From positions 1-20,465 of IMG/VR virus record IMGVR_UViG_3300042503_000377: a DNA stretch of 20,465 nt. One strand, given 5' to 3'. Shown in pieces: positions 7,231 through 19,195 of this stretch. Under the pieces are notes generated by a model, which was not told the origin of the DNA, did no database searches, and saw only the letters and a list, made by a program, of their open reading frames with translations. This stretch comes from a virus. The position numbers were made by a program, and so were the translations under genes. Position 1 is the stretch's first letter, and every line of letters begins with the position of its first letter.

Positions 7231-7248
7231 CCATTGCTAGGGCTCATC

Positions 7249-9261
7249 ATGGCAGCAGTCAACATCAAAGCATTTCGTGGGGCTGTACCGCGCATCAGCT
7301 CCAGACTTTTGCAGCCTAACCAAGCAGAAGTTGCTGACAACTGTAAGCTGACTTCCGGTAGCCTTGAACCTCTGAAAGGGCCGCTCTTGGTGCACTCGTC
7401 GCTGCTTGACGAAGTCAAGACCGCGTACTTTTGGCGAGCAATCATCGACAGCCGCCCACAAGACAACTGGCTCGTGTGGAACTCTGACGTCGACATCGCC
7501 AAGTCCTTGGTGCCAAACGACCCACTGCAGCGAATCTACTTCAGCAGCGAGGACTTTGAGCCCCGTATGTCTACGTACAACTTGGCAATTAACTCGTTGC
7601 CGTACCCGACTGCGTGGTACGCGCTTGGCGTTGTAGCACCTACAGCGGCTCCGACCATTACGCCCAGTGGCGGCTCTGGCACGCTGGAGTCTCGCTCGTA
7701 CGTGTATACGTACGTGACTGCTCTTGGCGAAGAGTCTCCACCTTCCCCACCTTCTACCGTGACGAACGGATACCCGAACGGTACGTGGAGTGTTACTGAC
7801 ATGCAGGTTGCGCCTCTGAACGCGGGCGCTGTTACAGGGGCTGTTTCCATACCCGGCGAACAGGTTCGTGTGACTCTGAATAGCACGTTTGGCTTTTCCC
7901 AGTACGACACGATCACGTTCTCTGGTGTGGGTGGTATGACCGACCTGAACGGCACATTCAGGATTCAATCGCTTGGCCCTACTGCCAACACGCTTGTGAT
8001 TAACCTGAACACAGCACAAACCTACACGTCTGGTGGCAGTTGGGCGAAGACAGCGCCACACAACACTGTCAACATGGTCAAGCGCATTTACCGCACCGTA
8101 GGAACATCAGGCACATTCCTGTTTGTGGCCGAAGTAGCAGTAACGAATCCTACATACTCTGACACAGTCCTCGCGGCGAGTCTTGGCGAAGAACTTCCAA
8201 CAGTCGACGCTTCGCTGCCACCAAAAAACTTGGTGTCGCTTATCAGTCTACCCAACGGGTGCTTGGTTGGTATCTCTGGCAACGAGGTGTGCTTCAGTGA
8301 CCCATACGTGCCATATTCTTGGCCAATCCGCAATCGCTACGCCTTCGGTGGTACCGGCGTAAAGCTGGTTGCGTCTGGCAACTCCGTCATTGTGCTGACT
8401 GACTCATACCCGATTTTGTTCACAGGCTCGGACCCAGAAGCCATGTCTCCATCCACGATGCCTACTTTTGCACCGTGCGTGTCTAAGCGTGGCGTTGTGG
8501 ACGTTGGCGGCGGATGCATGTACCCTAGCTTCGACGGACTTTGGCTCGCTTCCCCCGGCAGAGTAGACAAGATCACGGCCAAACTCTACCGCGAAGAAGA
8601 CTGGCGGTTGCTAAACCCAGAGTCTTTCGTTGCTGGTTTCTCTGATGGGCAGTACTACGCCAAGTACGATACTGAAAACTCGACGTTTATATGGCTTTTC
8701 GACACGCTGGAAAACGACAGTGTTGTTCGTGTTGAGCAGAGCGCTACGTACCTGCTCCGCAGTGAGACTGACGGCGAGCTTTATTTTGTGGTGGGCAAGA
8801 GTATCTACAAATGGGACAGCAGCTCCAATACCCGGTATACATCGGACTGGGTCAGTGCAGAAATCCAAGCCCCACGCCCGCTGAACTTCTCTGCCGCGCA
8901 GGTCCATGCTGGATTTGACACCGTGCTACCGCCAAACACGGCTGACCTTGAGTACAACGAGTCCATCATTGGTGACGTAGACTTGGTCGGCGGTAGCGTC
9001 AACGCTAACTCTTTGCTCGAACTGGAGATTAACGGGTCCAACCTACGAGCTGTTGTGCTGGAAACTGAAGCTGTGGTGCAGTTCACCCTGTACTCGAACG
9101 GCCAGCCTGTGTTCGTCACAGATGTTAGGTCTTCCAAACCATTCCGCCTTCCAGCTGGGTTCTTGTCGGAGGTCTACCAAGTTGGCATCACAACGTCTGT
9201 GCCGATCTACAACGTATCCATCGCTGAATCCATTTCTGAGCTGTCACAGGTCTCCTTATGA
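7249..9261 (+). CDS. Conserved tail structural protein, nozzle-type candidate
   Basis: 670 aa from ATG 7249. A TTG 15 bases upstream is in frame, but AGGG sits six bases before this ATG and MAAVNIKAFRG is the usual kind of N-terminus. Near residues 148-172 lies a fibronectin-like stretch (SYVYTYVTALGEESPPSPP), followed by an Ig-like insert at about 190-270. Residues 335-405 hold the block PNGCLVGISGNEVCFSDPY ... TGSDPEAMS, and SFDGLWLASPG follows near residue 425; these recur in a large family of phage virion proteins. In short-tailed phages such proteins form the lower tail tube, compare T7 gp12, but direct similarity to T7 gp12 is not visible here. The stop overlaps the next start as ATGA. 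Confidence 0.75.
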   Translation: MAAVNIKAFRGAVPRISSRLLQPNQAEVADNCKLTSGSLEPLKGPLLVHSSLLDEVKTAYFWRAIIDSRPQDNWLVWNSDVDIAKSLVPNDPLQRIYFSSEDFEPRMSTYNLAINSLPYPTAWYALGVVAPTAAPTITPSGGSGTLESRSYVYTYVTALGEESPPSPPSTVTNGYPNGTWSVTDMQVAPLNAGAVTGAVSIPGEQVRVTLNSTFGFSQYDTITFSGVGGMTDLNGTFRIQSLGPTANTLVINLNTAQTYTSGGSWAKTAPHNTVNMVKRIYRTVGTSGTFLFVAEVAVTNPTYSDTVLAASLGEELPTVDASLPPKNLVSLISLPNGCLVGISGNEVCFSDPYVPYSWPIRNRYAFGGTGVKLVASGNSVIVLTDSYPILFTGSDPEAMSPSTMPTFAPCVSKRGVVDVGGGCMYPSFDGLWLASPGRVDKITAKLYREEDWRLLNPESFVAGFSDGQYYAKYDTENSTFIWLFDTLENDSVVRVEQSATYLLRSETDGELYFVVGKSIYKWDSSSNTRYTSDWVSAEIQAPRPLNFSAAQVHAGFDTVLPPNTADLEYNESIIGDVDLVGGSVNANSLLELEINGSNLRAVVLETEAVVQFTLYSNGQPVFVTDVRSSKPFRLPAGFLSEVYQVGITTSVPIYNVSIAESISELSQVSL

Positions 9262-9452
9262 CAAAAGCCGCTATCCCCGTCGTCAACTCTGGCCAGTTTG
9301 ACATCGACCAATTTGCATCTGCTGTGAAGCAGAACATGGATGCCATGACGGGACAGGCCAGAAACGTGACCCGCCTGCAGCCGCTACCCGCCACCGCCAC
9401 GCTGGCCGAAGTGATCGCCCAGCTCAACGCCGTTGTGGATAGATTGCAGTAG
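9258..9452 (+). CDS. 64-aa hypothetical protein, structural-module companion
   Basis: The product has a polar N-terminal half (VNSGQFDIDQFASAVKQNMDAM) and ends in a predicted helix (LAEVIAQLNAVVDRLQ) with heptad-like hydrophobic spacing, which could form a small coiled coil. The ATGA overlap ties its translation to the tail structural gene. Small proteins of this type commonly accompany that structural gene in phages; a chaperone or minor virion role is a guess. Confidence 0.7.
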   Translation: MTKAAIPVVNSGQFDIDQFASAVKQNMDAMTGQARNVTRLQPLPATATLAEVIAQLNAVVDRLQ

Positions 9453-9458
9453 ATCGGC

Positions 9459-9464
9459 CATAAT
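9459..9464 (+). promoter_or_regulatory. Possible -10 box (CATAAT) just before the cupin-SET start
   Basis: The 19-bp gap before ATG 9472 contains CATAAT and no purine-rich ribosome site. A start of transcription about seven bases after the box would fall on the ATG and give a leaderless message. No convincing -35 lies 16-18 bases upstream (TTGTGG is 20 bases away), so this is weak. Confidence 0.22.
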
Positions 9465-9471
9465 ACGCACT

Positions 9472-10350
9472 ATGGAACTTGAACTCGTAGAGCAGTCGGC
9501 AGTGGACTCCTGCTACCCTGATGGGGTGCCGGAAGGATTCCCCATTGATTTGTTCGAGCCGATCAACGGCCCAGAGCTGGTCATCCGCGAGGCCAAGCTG
9601 CGCAACAAGATCGACGCCCTGCAGGCGCTTATGCTGCAGCAGCCACAGGCTGATACGCCCGTGCGCAACGTGTTTTCTGGCGGCGTCTACGCCCGCGAGC
9701 TGTTCATCCCCAAGGGGACTTTGCTGGTGGGCAAGCTGCACATGACTGAGCACTTGAACATCTGCATGCAGGGCGACCTCACATTCATGACGGCAGACGG
9801 ACCTAAGCGTATCAAGGCTCCGGCCATGTTTTCGTCCCCCGCTGGCACGAAGAAGTTAGCGTACGCCAACGAAGATTCGATCTGGATCAATGTGCACCCT
9901 GACTTGGGCCTTGAGCCTGACCAGATCATTGATGCCATCACAGTGAACACATTCGCTGAATACGAGAAACTTGTTGCCCACGCCAGCTTCAAAGACACCA
10001 TTGCTGCGTTCGGGCTGGCTGAAGATACTGTACGTACCGTGTCCGTCGACGAGTCTACGCTGGACAGAACTCCACTAGACGGCGTTGAGGTGCGCGAGTC
10101 CGCTATCGAAGGGTCAGGCTTGTTTTCCTTGCGCGGGTTCAGCGCAGGTGAGAAAATCTGCGTCGCGCTTGTGGACGGCAAACGGTCTCTGGCTGGGAGG
10201 TATTCCAACCATTCGCCCACGCCCAACTGCAATTTTTCTGTCGTCGATGGTGCACTGTGGCTTGTGGCAGGTCGCGAGATCGAGCCTGACGAGGAACTTA
10301 CCACCAATTACGGTGATACATTGACCCTTATCCAAGGGTTGGGGAGCTGA
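9472..10350 (+). CDS. Cupin-SET fusion, predicted protein-lysine methyltransferase
   Basis: 292 aa. Residues about 71-142 are a cupin-like barrel: KLHMTEHLNICMQG (88-101) keeps the H(x)3H(x)6G spacing of the cupin encoded at 5766, but the first motif-1 His is Lys88 and the motif-2 position is Lys128, so metal binding may be lost. Residues 205-283 are a compact SET domain: IEGSGLFSLRGF (212-223) for cofactor binding, GRYSNHSPTPNC (242-253) with the NHS core at 246-248, and EELTTNYGD with the probable catalytic Tyr280. SET enzymes move methyl groups from S-adenosylmethionine to lysine side chains. The insert between the first two motifs is much shorter than in eukaryotic SET domains. The target may be a virion or host protein. 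No clear ribosome site precedes the ATG. Confidence 0.82.
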   Translation: MELELVEQSAVDSCYPDGVPEGFPIDLFEPINGPELVIREAKLRNKIDALQALMLQQPQADTPVRNVFSGGVYARELFIPKGTLLVGKLHMTEHLNICMQGDLTFMTADGPKRIKAPAMFSSPAGTKKLAYANEDSIWINVHPDLGLEPDQIIDAITVNTFAEYEKLVAHASFKDTIAAFGLAEDTVRTVSVDESTLDRTPLDGVEVRESAIEGSGLFSLRGFSAGEKICVALVDGKRSLAGRYSNHSPTPNCNFSVVDGALWLVAGREIEPDEELTTNYGDTLTLIQGLGS

Positions 10351-10352
10351 TT

Positions 10353-11294
10353 ATGAGTGCTGTTGTTGGTGCAATTGCTGTCGGTGGCGGTCTTGCTATG
10401 GGACTTGGCGGAGCTGCGCTTGTCGGCGCTGGCGTGGCTGGCGTGGCTGGCGGCTTAATGATGCAAGAGGGGCGCGAAAACGCCGCTGAAGCTCAGGCTG
10501 CACAAGAACGCGCCGCTGCTGGTTTGGCCTCGTCGTCTGACTACGCTGCTAAGTTGTCGTACAACTTGGGCCAAGACCAACTGGCTTTCGAGAAACAGCA
10601 GTACGCTGAGATGAAGCCGTTGGCGGAACGTGTTTCTGCATCACAGGTTGCGGCGCAAGACGAGCAAATGCGGCAAGGGCGCGACTACTACAACTACCAG
10701 ACTAATACGTTCCGCCCGCTTGAGCAGGGTCTGGTTTCACAAGTCCAACAGTTTGACACTGAGGCTTACCGTGAGCAGCTGGCCTCGCAGGCTGCGGCAG
10801 ACGTTTCGCGTGCATTCGGTGTGGCGCAGGGCATGACCACTCGTGATCAAGCTCGTCGTGGTGTTGGCCCCGGCTCAGGCAACGCCTTGGCCATGAACAA
10901 CCAGAACGCTTTGGCGCTGGCTTCTGCCCGCGCAGGCGCGGCTACAGGTGCACGCAATCAGGCTGAGCAGCTCGGCTACGCCCGCAAGCTGGATGTCACA
11001 GGTCTTGGCCGTGGTCTGGCTGGAGCGTCTACTGCAGCGTACGGTGCAGCAACAACCGCTGGCACCGCTGGCTTGAACTCTGCCATGGCACCGGGTGCTC
11101 AGTACTCCGCAGGCGCAAACCGCGCAGCTGGCGTTATGACCACTGGCGCAGGACAACAAATTTCTGGGTACAGCTCACTGTACGGCGGCGCGACAAGCCT
11201 TGCCTCCGCTGCAATGCAGGAACAAGCAGGCATGACTGGCTCTCTGCTCGGCATGGCCGGAACTTTGGGCGCTGGCTACCTCGGCAGAAAATAA
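10353..11294 (+). CDS. Internal virion / DNA-ejection protein A
   Basis: 313 aa. Residues 3-36 are a Gly/Ala/Val hydrophobic stretch able to enter a membrane. Next comes a Gln/Glu/Ala-rich helical middle (residues 45-165) and then an Ala/Gly-rich second half ending in another mildly hydrophobic segment (285-312). This fits the small ejection protein of short-tailed phages, the kind of role T7 gp14 plays, where internal virion proteins are pushed into the host envelope and form a DNA conduit. Sequence alone does not prove this; the place directly before two larger ejection-type proteins supports it. GGGGAG lies six bases upstream of the ATG. Confidence 0.68.
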   Translation: MSAVVGAIAVGGGLAMGLGGAALVGAGVAGVAGGLMMQEGRENAAEAQAAQERAAAGLASSSDYAAKLSYNLGQDQLAFEKQQYAEMKPLAERVSASQVAAQDEQMRQGRDYYNYQTNTFRPLEQGLVSQVQQFDTEAYREQLASQAAADVSRAFGVAQGMTTRDQARRGVGPGSGNALAMNNQNALALASARAGAATGARNQAEQLGYARKLDVTGLGRGLAGASTAAYGAATTAGTAGLNSAMAPGAQYSAGANRAAGVMTTGAGQQISGYSSLYGGATSLASAAMQEQAGMTGSLLGMAGTLGAGYLGRK

Positions 11295-11305: not shown

Positions 11306-13084
11306 ATGGCAAGCGCATTCGCACAGGGCATGGAGTCTGGAACACGACTCGCCAAAAGCTGGTTGGACACGTACAACCAAACCGAAGAGAAAACACGCAA
11401 GCGTCGCGCTGCTGAGGAAATCGCTGCAGCTGGTACCACCAGCCTTGCAGAACTCCCAGAGCAGCCACGTGTGTACACCCCCGAAGCTCCTGCCGCCCCT
11501 GCCGCTCCCGCGCTCGGTACTGGCGCATACGGCACAGAAGAAGACTACACGAGCATCCAGCCTCAAGGCTTGGTGCGTCCTCAGCCTGCCGCCCCTGCGG
11601 CGACACCACCGGGCACTGGGTTTGCTCGCGGGTACACAGCTGATCAGACTCAGGCCGTGCGTTCTGCGTACGCTACAGGCGGCGCTCCTGCTGCTGAGCG
11701 AGCAGCTACTGCTCAAGGCGTCCCCACACAAGGGCTCACGCGCCCAATCCCCATGTCGCAGCAGCTTGCCCGTCAGGCTGACATCTACGCACGCAACGGG
11801 TTGACAGATCAGGCCGAGCAGTACCGCCTGAAAGCATACGACGTCAGTCGCCAAGAGGAACAGGATGCACGTGCTCGGGAAGCCGACGCTCGCACCAAAG
11901 CCGATTACGAGCAGAAGCAAAACACCAATAACGCTGCCCAGTGGATGGCCGAGCAGATCAGCTCAGGCCGCACTGCAGACATGACTCTGATCGCTGAAGC
12001 ACAGACAAAGTTCAAGGGCAACTACGACACGCTCTTGTCCACCACTGCCAACGTGCTGGGTATTACCGACAAGATCGCGAAGCAGAAGACAGACCAACTG
12101 GTGAACCAGATCAATGAAGCTGTGCTGGGCGGTGAAGCATCGTTCAACAAGTTGTTGGGGTCGTTTGCTGACCCGAACAAAGAGGACAACATCACCCCCA
12201 AGCTGATGCAAGTCAAGGGCGGCGTGCAGGTCATGTACGGCAACAAGCCCATGAGCCCAGTGTTCACTGGCGCTGACGGCATTTCTCCTCTGCAACAAGC
12301 TGGTGCGTTCTACATCAACACCGCACAGGGCAAACCGTTTGAAACCGCTATCCAGATGCAGAACCTTGCAAAGGGTGCGGCTGCTATTAAGGCTTCTGAA
12401 GCGACTACTAATGCGTCTAATGCTACAGTTGGGTTGCGTAATGCTCAGATCGGGCAAATCAAAGAGGGCAGTAAAAACGCAACCGAACGTGCAGACATTG
12501 TTGATAAATTTGAAGCGCTCACACCGGAAGAGCAAGCTGGTCCAAAAGGTCAAGGTCTCATTAAGCAGTTCAACCTGCTCAACGTAAAAGCCGGTGGTCA
12601 GGTGTCGCTTGGCGCAGCCCCTAAAACCGCTGGCCCTGTCAAAATGGATGATCTCGATAAAGAGAACTTGCGTGCGTACCGCGACTGGGAGAAAGACCCA
12701 CGTAACGCTAAGCTGCCGCAAGGGCAGAAAGACGCTTACGCTGCACGACTTGGGGTCACAGAGTTTATCAATCGCGCTGCTGCTGGCCCGCAAACTGGTG
12801 TGGGCTCGAACCCGTACGCTGCATCACAGCAGGGCGTGGACACTACTCGCGCTCCAACTCCTGCTGCCCCTGCTGCCCCTGCTGCCGCTCCTGCTCCGAT
12901 GGCACTGAGCACAGAAAATACGAAGATACTAAACCGTGCCGGAAACACAGGCTACAACGTACAATTGCCAGACGGCACGACACAAGTGATGTCGATCTCG
13001 CAGCTCAACAAGCTGGGTTATCAGTTCCCTAGTGGCACTGGACTTCAGCGAGCATGGTACGAAGATTTGCTGCCACGTCGCTGA
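11306..13084 (+). CDS. Internal virion / DNA-ejection protein B
   Basis: 592 aa, no signal peptide and no TM. It has a helical N-terminus (GMESGTRLAKSWLDTYNQTEEK), a Pro/Ala linker at residues 55-70 with further Pro-rich sequence to about 150, then a long Ala/Gln/Lys-rich helical middle (residues 150-420). A second Pro/Ala linker at about 510-530 leads to a small C-terminal domain (NVQLPDGTTQVMSISQLNKLGY) that looks like a compact binding module. Size, helical content and position between two other ejection-type genes suggest a middle ejection protein, by analogy with T7 gp15; no sequence match to gp15 is claimed. AAGGAG lies seven bases before the ATG. Confidence 0.65.
   Translation: MASAFAQGMESGTRLAKSWLDTYNQTEEKTRKRRAAEEIAAAGTTSLAELPEQPRVYTPEAPAAPAAPALGTGAYGTEEDYTSIQPQGLVRPQPAAPAATPPGTGFARGYTADQTQAVRSAYATGGAPAAERAATAQGVPTQGLTRPIPMSQQLARQADIYARNGLTDQAEQYRLKAYDVSRQEEQDARAREADARTKADYEQKQNTNNAAQWMAEQISSGRTADMTLIAEAQTKFKGNYDTLLSTTANVLGITDKIAKQKTDQLVNQINEAVLGGEASFNKLLGSFADPNKEDNITPKLMQVKGGVQVMYGNKPMSPVFTGADGISPLQQAGAFYINTAQGKPFETAIQMQNLAKGAAAIKASEATTNASNATVGLRNAQIGQIKEGSKNATERADIVDKFEALTPEEQAGPKGQGLIKQFNLLNVKAGGQVSLGAAPKTAGPVKMDDLDKENLRAYRDWEKDPRNAKLPQGQKDAYAARLGVTEFINRAAAGPQTGVGSNPYAASQQGVDTTRAPTPAAPAAPAAAPAPMALSTENTKILNRAGNTGYNVQLPDGTTQVMSISQLNKLGYQFPSGTGLQRAWYEDLLPRR
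12860..12886 (+). repeat. Three perfect copies of CCTGCTGCC in a Pro/Ala linker
   Basis: Three head-to-tail copies of a 9-bp unit encode part of the second Pro/Ala linker of ejection protein B. Such a tract can gain or lose units by slippage and so change the linker length without shifting the frame. Confidence 0.7.
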
Positions 13085-13097
13085 ACACGGAGTAAAA

Positions 13098-16000
13098 ATG
13101 GCTATCTACACCCTCGAAGACCTACGCAACGCTGTACCGCAGGACATGAAAGGGTTGGCGGATGATGCCCTCGTCCGCGACTACAGCCAACGTATTGGCA
13201 AGTCTTTTGAAGAAACAGCCGACTACCTTGGCCTGAAAGCTCGCGGAACTGCTGCTGAGATGGGGCGTCAAGCCCTCGGTGGCGCTGTTGTTGATCTGCC
13301 GAAGATGGTCGGCCAAGGCCTGCAGTACACAGGTATTGCCCCCGAGTTTGGCCGCGAGATGGCTGCATCTGCTGAGGCGCGTGCTCCTGAGTATGTCCCC
13401 GATATGCGTGGCCGTGGCTTGCTCGGCCAAGCTGGCGTCCTTGGTGCTCGTGGCCTTGCACCTGTTGCTGCTACATTGCCGCTGGCATTTGTCCCCGGTG
13501 GCCAAGTCGCTGCGCCATTGGCGGCTGCTACGCTGTTCGGCACATCGTCAGCACAAGAGACCTACGACAAGCTGATCTCCCAAGGCGCAACTGAGCAAGA
13601 TGCCATTGACGCAGCTCGCCGTGTTGGCATGATCCAAGGCCCGCTGGAAGGTGTTGCCACGGCTGTCGGCCTCCGCGCTGCCCGTCCGCTGGCTACTGCA
13701 CTGGGCGCTGCCCCCAAGACAACCGCTGGCATTGCCGGTGCGTTGACTGAAACCGCTGTTGCCAAACCGTTCGCCAAAGGAATGGCCACCAACTTGGTCG
13801 TGCAGCCGGGTACCGAAGTGGCCCAAGACGTAGGCAGTTCCTTGGTGGAGCGAGCCTATGGTGCCGCCCCCGAAGACCTTGGCGAGATGGCCAAGCAGTC
13901 CGCTCTGGGTGGCTTTGGCTTGACGCTGCTGCTGTCGCCCTTGGGCCTTGGCGGTGCTGTCTCTCGTTCGCGTAACGCTGAGCGTCTCACACAGGCTCTG
14001 TATGGCGAAGACACTGCACCAGAAGTCCGCGAAGCTGCACGCCTCGAAGTGATGGAAGCTGCACGCCAGCAGGGCGTGCCTGAGCAAAATACAGAAGAGT
14101 GGCTGCAGCGCCAGCTGCGTGAAGAAGCGGCCAACATTGCTGACACCCAGCTCAAGGAAGAGGAAACTCTGGCCGCTGCGCAAGAGACGCCATTTGCTGA
14201 CATTGCCTATGCACTGAGTGACCCTGAGCTGTCCGCCGTTATGTCTGAGCCCGACAGGGTCAAACTGTTCGGCACTCTGGAGACACTGCAGGCTACCGAT
14301 ACACCCGCTGAGCAGCGCGATGCTTTGCTGGCAGATGCAAATGAGACCATTGGCCGCTACGTCGCCGCGCTCCAAGAGCCCGGTGCAGAGACAGACCTGA
14401 CACAGCCGTTCGGCCTGCAGCGCCAGTCCGCATTGACCACAGCTCAACCTGTGCAGGAGCTCAACCTCGCAGGTGGGCTGACGCAAGTCCAGACCAACAT
14501 CCCTGACAGCTTGGCCGGGTATCAAGCCCCAGCTCCCGCAGGGCGCGAGATGCCACGCACGCAGGCTCCTGCACCCGTCGAAGGTGTCGAGGGCATCGAA
14601 GCTGTTCGCCCCGGTGTTTTCCAAGTCGCCCAACCCTTGCAGCAAGTCGGCACGTTCGTCGGCCCACGCCCAGCCCCAGCGGCCCCCGTTACTCCTCTCG
14701 GCGCACCAACTGCAGTTGCCGCCGCTTTGCCTGCTGCACAACCTGCAGCAGGCGTTTCTTCTACCACCACAACTACCGGAGCACCCAGTGGCACTCAAGC
14801 CCCTCAAGCCGTCAAAGCAAAAACGCAACGAACGAAAGCACCAGCAGCCCCTGCAGCCGCAGCCGTAGTCGAGGAAGAAGACAAGCCTCTGGCCAAGTTG
14901 CTCCAAGACGTTGACTCTGTTGACGTCGGCAACCCACTGCCCGCTTCTGTGCGCGGCGCTGAGACAGTCAAGGCCCCCGGTCGTACATCGCTCAGCACTG
15001 AGATGCTCAAGAAGGTGCGTGACGCCCTGCTGCGCCCATCGGGCAAAGTAGGCAAAGGTGCTGGTGAAGCGGAGCAACGAATCGTCGACGCACTGCGCAA
15101 CTTCGCTGGTGCGTACAAGACATACTCTGACCAAGGCGGTCAGGCAGTATCACGCCGCAACAAATTGCCTAAGTCCAAGGCCGCTGCAGATTTTGCAGAG
15201 ACTCAGGCTTCTGGTATCGAGGTCCAAGCTGCCAACGTGCAGGCTGCCTTGGCTGAGCTTGGTCAGGCTGTCGGCGGCAACGCCAAGGACATCGAGGCCG
15301 TTGTTCGTCTGGTCAAAGACATGGTTCAGGGCAAGATCGTTGCCCCCGGCAAAACACGCGCCGAAGTCATTCAGGCTGGCCAGAAACTGGACACCATGCT
15401 GTCACAGGCATGGGCTGCTGCCAAGCGTGAAACCTTCATGCGCGAAACCACTGACTTGGCCGACGTGCGTGGTGGTGTTGTACGTGTTGCAAAAGAGCAA
15501 CAAGGTGAAGTCTCGCCACTCCAGAAGGCAGCCACAGAAGGCGTTGCCAACCCAAGAGGCAAAGGCGAGCGCCAGTTCGGCCTGCAGGCAGTATTGCAGT
15601 ACATCCGCAACTCCGGCACTCCCTTCGAGCGCATGCTCGCGGCCACACTGCGCGATGTCATCAGCGACCAAATGAACGACGTCAAGCTGGAGTTCATCAC
15701 AGAAGGTGATCCACGCTTCGACCCCAAGACCAACACTGTGTATCTGCGGGCAAACGAGTCCCCAGAAGTTGCGCTGCACGAAGCACTGCACGCCGCATTG
15801 CAGTCGTTCATCTACAAGAATCCCAAAGACCCAATGGTCATGCAGCTCAAGCGTTCGCTCAAGGCTGTTGTTGGATACAAGGGCGAGCTGACTGGCAAAG
15901 CCAAGGAAGTCCAAGACCTGCTGAAGAAGCTCGTCGCAGATAAGAACGAATTGGACGCTGTGCTGGAACTGGTGTCGTACGGCACCACGCTCAACGACTT

Positions 16001-18941
16001 CCGCAAGGCGCTGGAGGCTATGCCATCCAAGGGCGTACCTGCATCATTCCGTGAGTCCGTGAGCAACGTCTGGCGCTACATCAAGGCTGTCATGGCCCGC
16101 ATGCTGAACAAGCCAAACACAGTGGCTGCAGATGTGCTCGACACAAGCCTTGCCCTGCTCGAAAAAGCCAGCAAAGAAGCACGCGTGCCAAACACAGGCA
16201 ACGTACTCGAAGCCGCTGTGCAGACCAGCAAGCCTGTCAGCAACGAGAAAGCTGCTGCAGCTCTGGGCGTCCCTGTCGTGGATTACACCCGCTGGGAAGA
16301 GAAGAACCTCGTCAACGTATTTAGCTTTCAGCGTCTGTTTGAGGCTGTCGGCTGGAGCGAAGAAGGCATGGTCGGCAAGGGTGTTGAGAAGCTGGCTGGG
16401 TGGGCTCGTGAGACAGCAAAGAAGTACCCCAGCGCAGAGATTGTTGCTGGCCTGCTGAACTCACGGTACAACGTCACACGCGATGTCTCCAACATCCAAG
16501 ACAACTACAAGTTCGACAAGAACGTCGGCTACCAAGTCGCTGAGCGTATTGCCAACTACATCACCAGCCAGCCAGCTGCGCAAGTCAACGCTGTGTTCGA
16601 TTATCTCGACGGCAACAAACGCGCACTGGATGGTGTCAATGACGGCGGTAAGCTCAAGGGCTTGGCTGACAACATGAAGAAGTGGTTCGACATCTACGTG
16701 GCTGAGTTGTCGCCTGTCGAGCAGAAATTCTTCAACACACGCAAGTTCTCCGAGAACCTGCTGTTCCCGTCGCGCACCGAAGAGATCGCCCGCAACCAGT
16801 TTGGCCTCGGCAAGATCAATGCTGTACTCGGCAAGAAGTCTGTCTCCGAAAAAGAAATCGACGAGAACTGGTTCACCAAAACCGCAGACGGCGATGTCGT
16901 TCTGGACGGCGACTTCTACCAAGTGTTTAAGACCGCCAACACTGTCAAAGGCACGCCTGAGTCTGCTGGCTTTATGTCGGCTGCTAAGTTCAAGGAACTC
17001 GGCGAGAAAGACCCTATGGGTTTTGCTGTCGACACTACGCGCAAGTGGGTCAACGAGAAAGGCGATGTGGATAAGGGCGAGTTTAAGTTCACTACGAACA
17101 CGACGGCTAAAGAGAAGATCGCAGACGAAAAAGCTGACGATCTGGCAAACGCTCTGCGCAACACCATGGCTGCGCTGGCCAACAACTACGCCAGCAAGAA
17201 CTTCATCAGTGCCATGGCCAAGATGGGCAGCGAAGACAGCCCCTACCCACGTGTTGCCTACGACAACGTAGCGCAGATCAACGAAGAGTATGGCACCAAG
17301 CTGCAAGAGGGCGACGACCGCATTCTGAGCGTGTCGGAAGAAATGTCGCGTTCTGAGAAGACACGTGACCTGTACCGCATGTCTGGCACTTGGGTGCAGC
17401 TGCCGAAGTCTGATGTGTACGGTGATCTCGCTGGCAAGTATCTGCCGGGTCCAGTGTGGAACTCGATGATCGACATGTACTCGCGCCAGCCAGTCATTGA
17501 AATCCGCGCAGTCAACAGCACGATGCGCTGGTTCAAGAAGACAAAGACCACGCTGAACCCCGGCACACACGTCACCAACGCGGCCTCGAACATTACCATG
17601 GCGATGATGCACGACATCTCGTTCAAGACAATGCGCGATGCCACCAAGTTGTTGTACCGCTACGAGTTCAGCCCCAAATCGCTGACTGTGCAAGAGCGCA
17701 CCATGGTCGAGCAGTTTATCAACTCTGGCGCGATGCTGGGCGACTTCTCCAGCACAGAAGTCAAAGAAGCCTTGTACCAAGCGCAAGAGAACAACCTGCG
17801 CAACGGCAACGACGACTCCCTGCTGACACGTGTCGCGGGCTACCTCGGCATCGAGAAGTCCAAAGCTGAGTTCATCGACAAGTACGTCAAGAAGGGTGCC
17901 AAGGGTGCATTGACAGCCGATGAGGTGATGACGCAAATCTACGCCTTTGAAGACAACGCGTTCCGCATGGCAGCGTTTATGAAGAGCGTTGGCCAAGAGC
18001 AGCTCAAGGCTAACGCCAAGGCACCGACTGACGCTATGTTCCGCACTGCTGGACAGTTCGCCTTGAAGGCGTTCGGCGACTACGACATCGACTCCAAGGC
18101 TGTGAAGGCACTGCGCCAGACAGTGATGCCGTTCATCTCGTGGGGTTACGCCATGGGTCCAATGATTGGCCGTATGGTGCTGATGCAGCCATGGAAGATC
18201 GCAAACATCTTGATGGCGTACTACCTGCTGGAAGCTGCGATGAGTGGCGCTTCCGATGGCGACGACGAAGAGATTCGCAAGTCAGGGCCAGAGACTATCC
18301 GCGAGCGTATGTTCTTCGGCTCGGTTGGCCCATACATGCACGTCCGCATCCCGTTCATGGGCGATGCCGAGAACCCTGTGTACTACAAGCTCGGAGACTA
18401 CTTCCCTGTCGCGTCGATGACTAAAGGGTTGCCGAATGGGTTTATGGGCCAGTCATGGTTCCCAAGCATGATCACCCCCAGCGGACCGTTCGTGTCTGTG
18501 ATTGCCAGCACTGTGCTCGGCGTAGACACATTCACAGGCAAGTCCATCCACCAGCCGACTGACACAGGCTGGGAAAAGCTGTGGAACTCCACCAAGTCTG
18601 GGTATGACATCTTCACGCCACCTGCGATCAGCAGCAGACAGATCAGCCGCGCCACCGACTTCTTCGAGGGCAAAGAAGGCATCACAGGCGCTCCGCCTTC
18701 CGGCTTAGTGCTGGCCCGTTCTTTCGGCCTCAAGTTGTATGATTACAACGTAACAGAAGAGGAAGCCAAACAAGAGCTTAACGCTGAGCGCGTACAGCGT
18801 GAGTTCAAAGCTGCAATGACCAAGGCCAAGCGCGACGAGTACCGCAAGGGCTACCCAGACTATGAGGCTCTGGATAAAGAGCTCGAAGACCTGCAAGAAC
18901 GCATGGAAAAAGAGATGGCTAAAAAACGTGGAGAAGAATGA
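13098..18941 (+). CDS. Giant virion protein with zincin-like HExxH site and LPD38-like region
   Basis: 1947 aa from ATG 13098; a longer frame from 13032 has no support, and GGAG lies nine bases upstream of this ATG. Residues 1-50 form a small helical module. Residues about 110-145 and 270-290 are Gly/Ala/Leu-rich and could cross or disturb a membrane, with a PGTEVAQDVGSSLVE helix between them. Residues about 474-594 are a Pro/Ala linker. Residues about 835-1000 form a metallopeptidase-like domain: HEALH at 894-898, with Glu957 in LELVSYG as a possible third zinc ligand. From about 1450 to 1880 runs a region resembling polyvalent-protein domain LPD38 (NSTMRWFKKTKTTLNPGTHVTN). A charged coiled coil ends the protein. 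Such giants are packed in podovirus heads and enter the cell first. The protease may cut peptidoglycan, virion or host proteins. Confidence 0.8.
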   Translation: MAIYTLEDLRNAVPQDMKGLADDALVRDYSQRIGKSFEETADYLGLKARGTAAEMGRQALGGAVVDLPKMVGQGLQYTGIAPEFGREMAASAEARAPEYVPDMRGRGLLGQAGVLGARGLAPVAATLPLAFVPGGQVAAPLAAATLFGTSSAQETYDKLISQGATEQDAIDAARRVGMIQGPLEGVATAVGLRAARPLATALGAAPKTTAGIAGALTETAVAKPFAKGMATNLVVQPGTEVAQDVGSSLVERAYGAAPEDLGEMAKQSALGGFGLTLLLSPLGLGGAVSRSRNAERLTQALYGEDTAPEVREAARLEVMEAARQQGVPEQNTEEWLQRQLREEAANIADTQLKEEETLAAAQETPFADIAYALSDPELSAVMSEPDRVKLFGTLETLQATDTPAEQRDALLADANETIGRYVAALQEPGAETDLTQPFGLQRQSALTTAQPVQELNLAGGLTQVQTNIPDSLAGYQAPAPAGREMPRTQAPAPVEGVEGIEAVRPGVFQVAQPLQQVGTFVGPRPAPAAPVTPLGAPTAVAAALPAAQPAAGVSSTTTTTGAPSGTQAPQAVKAKTQRTKAPAAPAAAAVVEEEDKPLAKLLQDVDSVDVGNPLPASVRGAETVKAPGRTSLSTEMLKKVRDALLRPSGKVGKGAGEAEQRIVDALRNFAGAYKTYSDQGGQAVSRRNKLPKSKAAADFAETQASGIEVQAANVQAALAELGQAVGGNAKDIEAVVRLVKDMVQGKIVAPGKTRAEVIQAGQKLDTMLSQAWAAAKRETFMRETTDLADVRGGVVRVAKEQQGEVSPLQKAATEGVANPRGKGERQFGLQAVLQYIRNSGTPFERMLAATLRDVISDQMNDVKLEFITEGDPRFDPKTNTVYLRANESPEVALHEALHAALQSFIYKNPKDPMVMQLKRSLKAVVGYKGELTGKAKEVQDLLKKLVADKNELDAVLELVSYGTTLNDFRKALEAMPSKGVPASFRESVSNVWRYIKAVMARMLNKPNTVAADVLDTSLALLEKASKEARVPNTGNVLEAAVQTSKPVSNEKAAAALGVPVVDYTRWEEKNLVNVFSFQRLFEAVGWSEEGMVGKGVEKLAGWARETAKKYPSAEIVAGLLNSRYNVTRDVSNIQDNYKFDKNVGYQVAERIANYITSQPAAQVNAVFDYLDGNKRALDGVNDGGKLKGLADNMKKWFDIYVAELSPVEQKFFNTRKFSENLLFPSRTEEIARNQFGLGKINAVLGKKSVSEKEIDENWFTKTADGDVVLDGDFYQVFKTANTVKGTPESAGFMSAAKFKELGEKDPMGFAVDTTRKWVNEKGDVDKGEFKFTTNTTAKEKIADEKADDLANALRNTMAALANNYASKNFISAMAKMGSEDSPYPRVAYDNVAQINEEYGTKLQEGDDRILSVSEEMSRSEKTRDLYRMSGTWVQLPKSDVYGDLAGKYLPGPVWNSMIDMYSRQPVIEIRAVNSTMRWFKKTKTTLNPGTHVTNAASNITMAMMHDISFKTMRDATKLLYRYEFSPKSLTVQERTMVEQFINSGAMLGDFSSTEVKEALYQAQENNLRNGNDDSLLTRVAGYLGIEKSKAEFIDKYVKKGAKGALTADEVMTQIYAFEDNAFRMAAFMKSVGQEQLKANAKAPTDAMFRTAGQFALKAFGDYDIDSKAVKALRQTVMPFISWGYAMGPMIGRMVLMQPWKIANILMAYYLLEAAMSGASDGDDEEIRKSGPETIRERMFFGSVGPYMHVRIPFMGDAENPVYYKLGDYFPVASMTKGLPNGFMGQSWFPSMITPSGPFVSVIASTVLGVDTFTGKSIHQPTDTGWEKLWNSTKSGYDIFTPPAISSRQISRATDFFEGKEGITGAPPSGLVLARSFGLKLYDYNVTEEEAKQELNAERVQREFKAAMTKAKRDEYRKGYPDYEALDKELEDLQERMEKEMAKKRGEE

Positions 18942-19195
18942 TGGCAAAGACACCTGCATGGACACGCAAAGAAGGCAAAGACCCCAAGGGCGGGCTCAAC
19001 GCCAAGGGGCGTGCCTCCTACAACAAAGCCAACCCCGGCAAGCCGGGGCTTAAGGCCCCTCAACCCGAAGGTGGCCCACGACGTGACTCGTTCTGCGCTC
19101 GTATGGAGGGCATGAAAGAGAAGCTGACCAGTGAAAAAACTGCCAAAGACCCCAACAGCCGCATCAACAAGTCGTTGCGTGCGTGGAAATGTTAA
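18938..19195 (+). CDS. Small basic DUF6321-like protein
   Basis: 85 aa, very rich in Lys, Arg, Gly and Pro. WTRKEGKDPKGGLNAKGRASYNK and then GGPRRDSFCARM followed by SLRAWKC at the end match a small protein family of unknown function that is widespread in phages (DUF6321). Two start codons stand side by side, ATG 18938 in the upstream stop and ATG 18941. The GGAG at 18930-18933 is better spaced for the second, so the true product may be one residue shorter. Two Cys (residues 53 and 85) and the many basic residues would allow DNA or RNA binding, but this is not established. Confidence 0.8.
   Translation: MMAKTPAWTRKEGKDPKGGLNAKGRASYNKANPGKPGLKAPQPEGGPRRDSFCARMEGMKEKLTSEKTAKDPNSRINKSLRAWKC

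Follow-up and report, generated by a model that had tools for sequence, protein, structure and literature searches.

Metallopeptidase domains buried within giant phage proteins are of a kind already known. Iyer et al. (2017; PMC5512222) described zincin-like metallopeptidases (MPTases) in phage polyvalent proteins, proposed that they process these proteins before or after transfer or else attack host proteins, and presented the embedded peptidases as an answer to the handling of such proteins during tail passage. In their account, P1 DdrB is cut before packaging, with its own MPTase only inferred as the cause, and the N4 polymerase is packaged unprocessed, its peptidase region being needed for encapsidation. 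The N4 polymerase contains a C1 domain, residues 2124-2375, described by its authors with a conserved HExxH motif (PMC12633501); the same source reports no degradation of the recombinant polymerase, and repression of the polymerase by its C-terminal part. A second description of the N4 zincin is given in PMC8472413, a jumbo-phage zincin has been proposed to act in maturation (PMC7824862), and the ejection protein gp48 of phage PhiM1 includes a domain that its authors call endolysin-like, with disordered loops at R280-S288, S321-A356 and V427-D446 (PMC11440229). In the portions of the literature examined, no activity, zinc or cleaved form attributed to the peptidase is reported for any family member.

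The window considered here, the whole stretch of 20,465 nt analysed from IMG/VR virus record IMGVR_UViG_3300042503_000377, leads from genes for the tail and lysis (S74 chaperone, spanin, endolysin) into virion genes. Those on which the argument turns are:

7234-9261, plus strand: internal virion protein homologue (phrog_511; BcepIL02 gp63, JC1 gp61)
10353-11294, plus strand: virion structural protein homologue (phrog_8003; BcepIL02 gp66)
11306-13084, plus strand: 592-aa upstream gene, placed as the virion-associated BcepIL02 gp69, no detectable homology
13098-18941, plus strand: giant polyvalent or ejection-type protein, ATG start, 1947 aa plus stop, with full-length homologues in IMG/VR

The product of 7234-9261 matches 166 phage records, the best of them ~60 kb Burkholderia phages (BcepIL02, BcepMigl, CSP3 and DC1), with JC1 close behind. 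In BcepIL02, gp63 and gp66 (the homologues of 7234-9261 and 10353-11294) are followed by gp69 and then by the giant DarB-like gp70, and position and annotation pair BcepIL02 gp63 and gp66 with JC1 gp61 and gp64, respectively. Mass spectrometry of purified JC1 virions detected gp61, gp64, gp68 and the giant DarB-like gp69 (PMC9144972). Because the gene for the 1947-aa protein occupies the slot where the Bcep22-like group keeps its virion-packaged giant, we believe, by analogy, that this protein is probably packaged and ejected as well. The ejection-protein setting proposed in the earlier note is supported by synteny and homology with Bcep22-like podovirus virion proteins, and by the presence of the same domain in PhiM1 gp48, the N4 virion RNA polymerase (vRNAP) and 9sfn.

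Some further features of this neighbourhood can be recorded on their own account. The product of 7234-9261 has an extra E1_FCCH match at 211-269, and the tail-fibre-like product of 9433-10350 (phrog_12032) matches a SET domain in its C-terminal part (E 5.7e-10). Downstream, a DUF6321 gene at 18938-19195 shares its first four bases with the end of the giant's reading frame; in PHROGs it matches the C-terminal end of larger proteins.

Within the 1947-aa protein the following parts can be distinguished:

13098-13997, plus strand: N-terminal module, residues 1-300, Ala/Gly-rich by composition, swapped as a block between relatives
14595-14927, plus strand: Ala/Pro-rich low-complexity linker, residues 500-610, by composition, with the L006 recombination boundary near residue 600
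14928-15539, plus strand: pre-zincin region, residues 611-814, helical by eye, without family match
15540-16232, plus strand: predicted zincin-like metallopeptidase domain, residues 815-1045 (AlphaFold2, VIA-align and BFVD matches)
15777-15791, plus strand: HEALH, residues 894-898, with predicted zinc ligands H894 and H898 and predicted general base E895
15966-15968, plus strand: Glu957, predicted third zinc ligand
16233-16334, plus strand: short linker, residues 1046-1079, the slot that holds an ART-PolyVal domain in 17 of 60 relatives
16335-18938, plus strand: class-specific C-terminal module (C-module), residues 1080-1947, 868 aa, unnamed, delimited by C-terminal alignment search (AlphaFold2 pLDDT 60.9)

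When the frame is translated and scanned, the motif and the glutamate stand exactly where the earlier note put both: HEALH at residues 894-898 is the sole HExxH in the protein, and Glu957 is the first residue of ELVSYG. Shuffling the protein's residues gave rise to an HExxH in 4 of 2000 trials, and a chance origin of the motif is therefore unlikely.

Ten loci in IMG/VR are related to the 1947-aa protein. Protein and DNA searches of 50,697 phage records returned no close relatives and a plasmid search returned none, while the domain profile produced 104 pattern matches in cellular genomes and no true relative among them. With the domain profile, built by way of two peptide patterns that leave out the HExxH motif, 54 loci were gathered, several of their contigs being near duplicates. 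HExxH falls inside the profile match in 53 of 53 frames, and the 54th locus, L054, also has one (HEVFH, followed downstream by DEFVAEAF), so that conservation in homologues, set beforehand as a refuting test, ended with the motif kept at all 54 loci. Dropping duplicate domains and pieces of <=180 residues reduced the 54 sequences, the 1947-aa protein included, to 46 non-redundant rows, in all of which H894, E895, H898, E957 and F968 are invariant, even as residues 896-897 vary widely (AL, AF, SL, TL, AA, AS, AV, VT, VV, IT, VF, MA). The main reservation about these rows is that they were trimmed around the motif and that the most distant of them were detected partly through the conserved motif region; for HExxH, the count over 54 loci is the less circular one, because only the 46-row set was cut in this way. 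Identity to the 1947-aa protein falls to ~20% in the lowest row, and with H, E, H and E invariant over that range, a metal and catalysis are hard to avoid as the explanation. At the same time, a tyrosine shortly before the third ligand is found in 15 of the 46 rows and in none of the 28 that belong to the clade of the 1947-aa protein; the active site is therefore not the common one, and its activity may be altered.

The predicted structure leads to the same place. AlphaFold2, given residues 815-1045 and 44 aligned sequences, returned a model with pLDDT 87.9 and pTM 0.88, in which three strands (model residues 49-53, 59-61 and 66-70) precede the HEXXH helix (75-93). HEALH occupies model residues 80-84 of this helix, and E957 is model residue 143 in a subsequent helix, 137-150. 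The model is zincin-like, and both the histidine pair and Glu957 are predicted to sit in its helices. Foldseek against the PDB gave no match at E<=0.001, and VIA-align was run on the top 1000 of that list. Among those 1000 the best match is N4 vRNAP gp50, residues 2136-2368 (Z 7.4, rmsd 4.5, 163 aligned), a range that falls within the C1 domain, followed by anthrax lethal factor (Z 7.0, rmsd 3.8-4.2 over 146-147 residues), values near 7 being middling by VIA-align's own note. PPEP-1, a Pro-Pro endopeptidase (Z 5.8, rmsd 3.7 over 131 residues), and the PhiM1 ejectosome chain 8vb2_A, 288-492 (Z 5.1, rmsd 5.2 over 128), also appear, and the leading rows are almost all zincins or fold relatives of zincins. 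In BFVD there are 15 matches at E<=0.001, to which Roseobacter and Vibrio phages contribute polyvalent proteins and vRNAPs; a crAss-like 'RNAP associated protein fused to zincin protease' follows more weakly at E 0.038.

Among the sequence profiles, the first domain profile gave only chance-level matches to solved structures. The 44-row profile matches the internal virion protein 9sfn_G (E 9e-11), a virion RNA polymerase (6e-4) and PhiM1 gp48 (E 0.0012, residues 379-488); HExxH is aligned in all three, and the downstream Glu too in 9sfn_G and gp48. Gag proteins matched by the same profile were set aside, a helical stretch being aligned there without HExxH. For sequence-level kinship with the lethal-factor/PPEP family, Pfam ATLF matches at E<=1 in 7 of the 44 rows (best 0.0038); the 1947-aa protein has no Pfam family at E<=0.01, and its Gly_radical and Tox-MPTase4 matches, weak and below cut-off, were discarded. 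With invariant H, E, H and E among relatives, a confidently predicted fold and zincins as its best solved matches, the zincin-type metal site suggested by the earlier note holds up well, and we are highly confident of both the fold and the metal site. On the model, residues 815-1045 are a zincin-like metallopeptidase domain of the kind that Iyer et al. reported from phage polyvalent proteins (PMC5512222).

The other two parts of that proposal fared differently. For a 'membrane-active N-terminal part' no strong membrane segment was found, the best 19-residue Kyte-Doolittle means being 1.60 (114-132) and 1.57 (270-288). An 'LPD38-like C-terminal part' is not supported: PF18857 has no match in the 1947-aa protein, LPD38 occurs in only 1 of 23 relatives (L053), and the tail of that carrier shows no relation to the C-terminal part of the 1947-aa protein.

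What this C-terminal part does define is a class. Used alone as query, the C-terminal alignment recovers 80 loci, and a zincin is present in 68 of the 68 C-module frames that extend far enough upstream, the remaining 12 of 80 being cut by the contig start. In 42 of 60 distinct proteins the zincin and the C-module lie 33-69 aa apart; the other 18 have 203-345 aa there, and ART-PolyVal accounts for 17 of these 18 long inserts, hence 17 of the 60 proteins. Within this class the zincin is obligatory and the downstream ADP-ribosyltransferase (ART) optional. Zincin plus ART-PolyVal, as in those 17 relatives, is the giant multidomain polyvalent layout, and the 1947-aa protein itself shows the zincin only. 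A separate observation concerns L134 5624-6334 (on a contig shared with L028), where a 217-aa insert in the ART slot is not an ART, has no Pfam match and contains HEGRH. The AlphaFold2 model of the C-module is poor, as its pLDDT indicates; a fold search with it yielded mainly long-helix matches, and the absence of N4 C2 from that list is uninformative.

The borders of these parts are also marked by recombination. Identity between the 1947-aa protein and L006 is 94-100% up to residue 600 and 37-47% beyond it; residues 1-300 match L006 at 100% and L001 at 50%; and L008 has 76% identity across the zincin and 36% across the C-module. Breaks lie near residues 300, 600 and 1045, and in most pairwise comparisons no block, or hardly any, is better conserved than the zincin. 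Seen against L006, L008 and L003, the gene is an intragenic mosaic in which near-identical blocks adjoin far more diverged ones.

The zincin is common to further classes of giants. Its profile aligns with that of a distant clade (hhalign E 3.8e-21) and with L052/L053 (7e-12), and the L053 zincin region matches the vRNAP family phrog_2206. Split profiles show no detectable relation between the C-terminal modules of the distant clade and L052/L053 and the C-module of the 1947-aa protein; alignments that mix both kinds of C-module have reliable invariant columns in the zincin only. Homology of the C-module to that of DarB/PLxRFG giants, which the mixed alignments had suggested, was rejected (split-profile hhalign probability 0.6%, E 0.1; best hmmsearch E 0.4). 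Among cultured DarB-like giants, 9 of 11 assessable proteins have HExxH or HExxxH ahead of their C-module, a count in which the motif was found by pattern, not profile, in most cases, and the C-module through distant members of the mixed alignment. The 11 come from 14 records: Itty13, cut by the record end, was left out, as were BcepIL02 and 252E42.2, where the motif is present and the module went undetected by profile. The two misses, L148 (Atu_ph08) and L152 (PBC5), carry a DarB-type C-module and no HExxH or HExxxH in ~1,250 residues upstream. Searches of the 14 records for a T7-type polymerase and a head-tail connector gave no match, nor did the controls, and are uninformative. Two variants may be recorded here: the Serratia phage Parlo giant (L065 5427-16721) has a profile zincin at 1107-1324 and a second motif, HEAFH, at 2557 ahead of its C-module, and in the Vibrio phage giants L066, L068 and L146 HExxxH replaces HExxH, ahead of the C-module where that is detected. 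A set of HExxxH type was also noted by Iyer et al. (PMC5512222).

Overall, the explanation we favour, though we regard it as an even call when taken as a whole, is that of an ejected polyvalent protein whose zincin processes itself or a partner after ejection. The 1947-aa protein would be a polyvalent protein that a Bcep22-like (~60 kb) podovirus packages in its virion and ejects, and it would be built from an N-terminal module, an Ala/Pro linker, a zincin, an optional ADP-ribosyltransferase slot and a class-specific C-terminal module. H894, H898 and E957 would bind the zinc, and E895 would activate water. Inside the capsid the zincin would be idle, whether inactive or unused; once ejected, it would most likely cleave either the chain it belongs to, at a linker, or an ejection partner, and so allow the N-terminal, ART and C-terminal units to work independently in the cell. 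That the zincin is catalytically active we consider likely, and if it is, the balance tilts towards self or partner processing over a host target. No cleavage site was found in the 1947-aa protein, and ready self-cleavage is disfavoured because the recombinant N4 polymerase shows no degradation.

Would the same observations be better explained by an effector protease, delivered to cut a host protein in defence, transcription or the envelope as the adjoining ART might? An optional ART effector does lie next to the zincin, Iyer et al. allow for host targets (PMC5512222), and the related folds include secreted or injected proteases. Nonetheless, in 68 of 68 frames the zincin is obligatory, not swapped in and out, it is generally the best or nearly the best conserved block, and it is also present in ejectosome proteins; an effector role therefore strikes us as unlikely, and processing fits better than one more effector because here an obligatory peptidase adjoins an optional effector. 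A different reading dispenses with proteolysis in the life cycle altogether and sees a zinc-stabilised packaging or docking module. The N4 region with the zincin is needed for encapsidation of a protein that is packaged whole (PMC5512222), the C-terminal part of N4 represses the polymerase (PMC12633501), and the assembled PhiM1 core incorporates the homologous stretch of gp48 (PMC11440229), all of which suits a structural domain. However, the general base E895, dispensable for zinc binding, is invariant too, and because of this we favour catalysis over a purely structural zinc and find the structural reading rather doubtful.

Timing is the issue with the second option of the earlier note, a maturation protease that would trim its own chain or other head proteins before the DNA is packaged. 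The cutting of P1 DdrB before packaging, for which the MPTase is the proposed cause (PMC5512222), and the maturation role proposed for the jumbo-phage zincin (PMC7824862) offer precedents, but the N4 polymerase, a relative, is packaged unprocessed (PMC5512222) and, as recombinant protein, stays intact (PMC12633501), so that action before packaging is the less likely course and this option seems to us quite improbable. There is, lastly, the suspicion that any HExxH invites, since the motif alone is short and might arise by chance in a helical protein with no metal site; given 4 in 2000 shuffles, retention at 54 of 54 loci and fold matches to zincins, it is barely credible here. Processing after ejection thus remains our preferred reading. 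Its most far-reaching form, which is speculative and which we think improbable as it stands, would make the zincin a working component shared by podovirus ejection machines (the N4 polymerase, the PhiM1 ejectosome, the DarB-like giants and the present class), sitting ahead of unrelated C-terminal modules and releasing or rearranging the injected protein past the tail, much like a viral polyprotein processing protease. If that were true, the PhiM1 'endolysin-like' domain would be this peptidase.

Regardless of the specific action of the zincin, the analysis bears on how giant ejection proteins are handled while passing the narrow tail. What is new here is the obligatory zincin with an optional ART in the C-module class; neither the clade of the 1947-aa protein nor its C-module has a Pfam, PHROGs or NCBIfam model above cut-off. 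The class offers a clean case: its one zincin is invariant and always present, its one ART is optional, and recombination has marked the module borders near residues 600 and 1045. A further suggestion is that one domain of the published PhiM1 ejectosome structure be reread as a zincin, and the existing density could be checked for metal. The 'endolysin-like' domain of gp48 covers the zincin-matching stretch (379-488 by profile, 288-492 by fold), and its zincin nature apparently goes unremarked in PMC11440229, the main text of which contains none of the words 'HExxH', 'protease' and 'peptidase'.

How, then, does the 1947-aa protein stand among the known systems? Anthrax lethal factor and PPEP-1, zincins to which we take the M34 label to apply, resemble it in fold (Z 7.0 and 5.8) at a sequence identity of 8-16%, and kinship beyond fold is not claimed. 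The DarB-like/PLxRFG giants of Bcep22-like and Lasta-like podoviruses share its place after the virion genes, and one is virion-packaged in JC1 (PMC9144972), but they differ in their annotated methylase and helicase parts and in an unrelated-looking C-module. The tetrameric ejection protein PhiM1 gp48 (8vb2) and 9sfn_G align HExxH and the downstream Glu to the family profile, a kinship claimed for the zincin domain. The MPTases of Iyer et al. have the same HEXXH helix, second helix with Glu and three-stranded sheet, and the same mid-protein position, in giant phage proteins where ART and LPD domains are neighbours (PMC5512222); the present clade, which has no Pfam, PHROGs or NCBIfam model above cut-off, may be one of their 12 clades. 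Closest among the solved structures compared is the C1 domain of N4 vRNAP gp50 (9pnt/9pnr; Z 7.4 over 163 residues). Although the 1947-aa protein has no RNA polymerase match, and kinship is claimed for the zincin and not for the C-terminal parts, the two giants are laid out alike: in both, a low-complexity linker precedes the zincin and a large C-terminal part follows it (PMC12633501).
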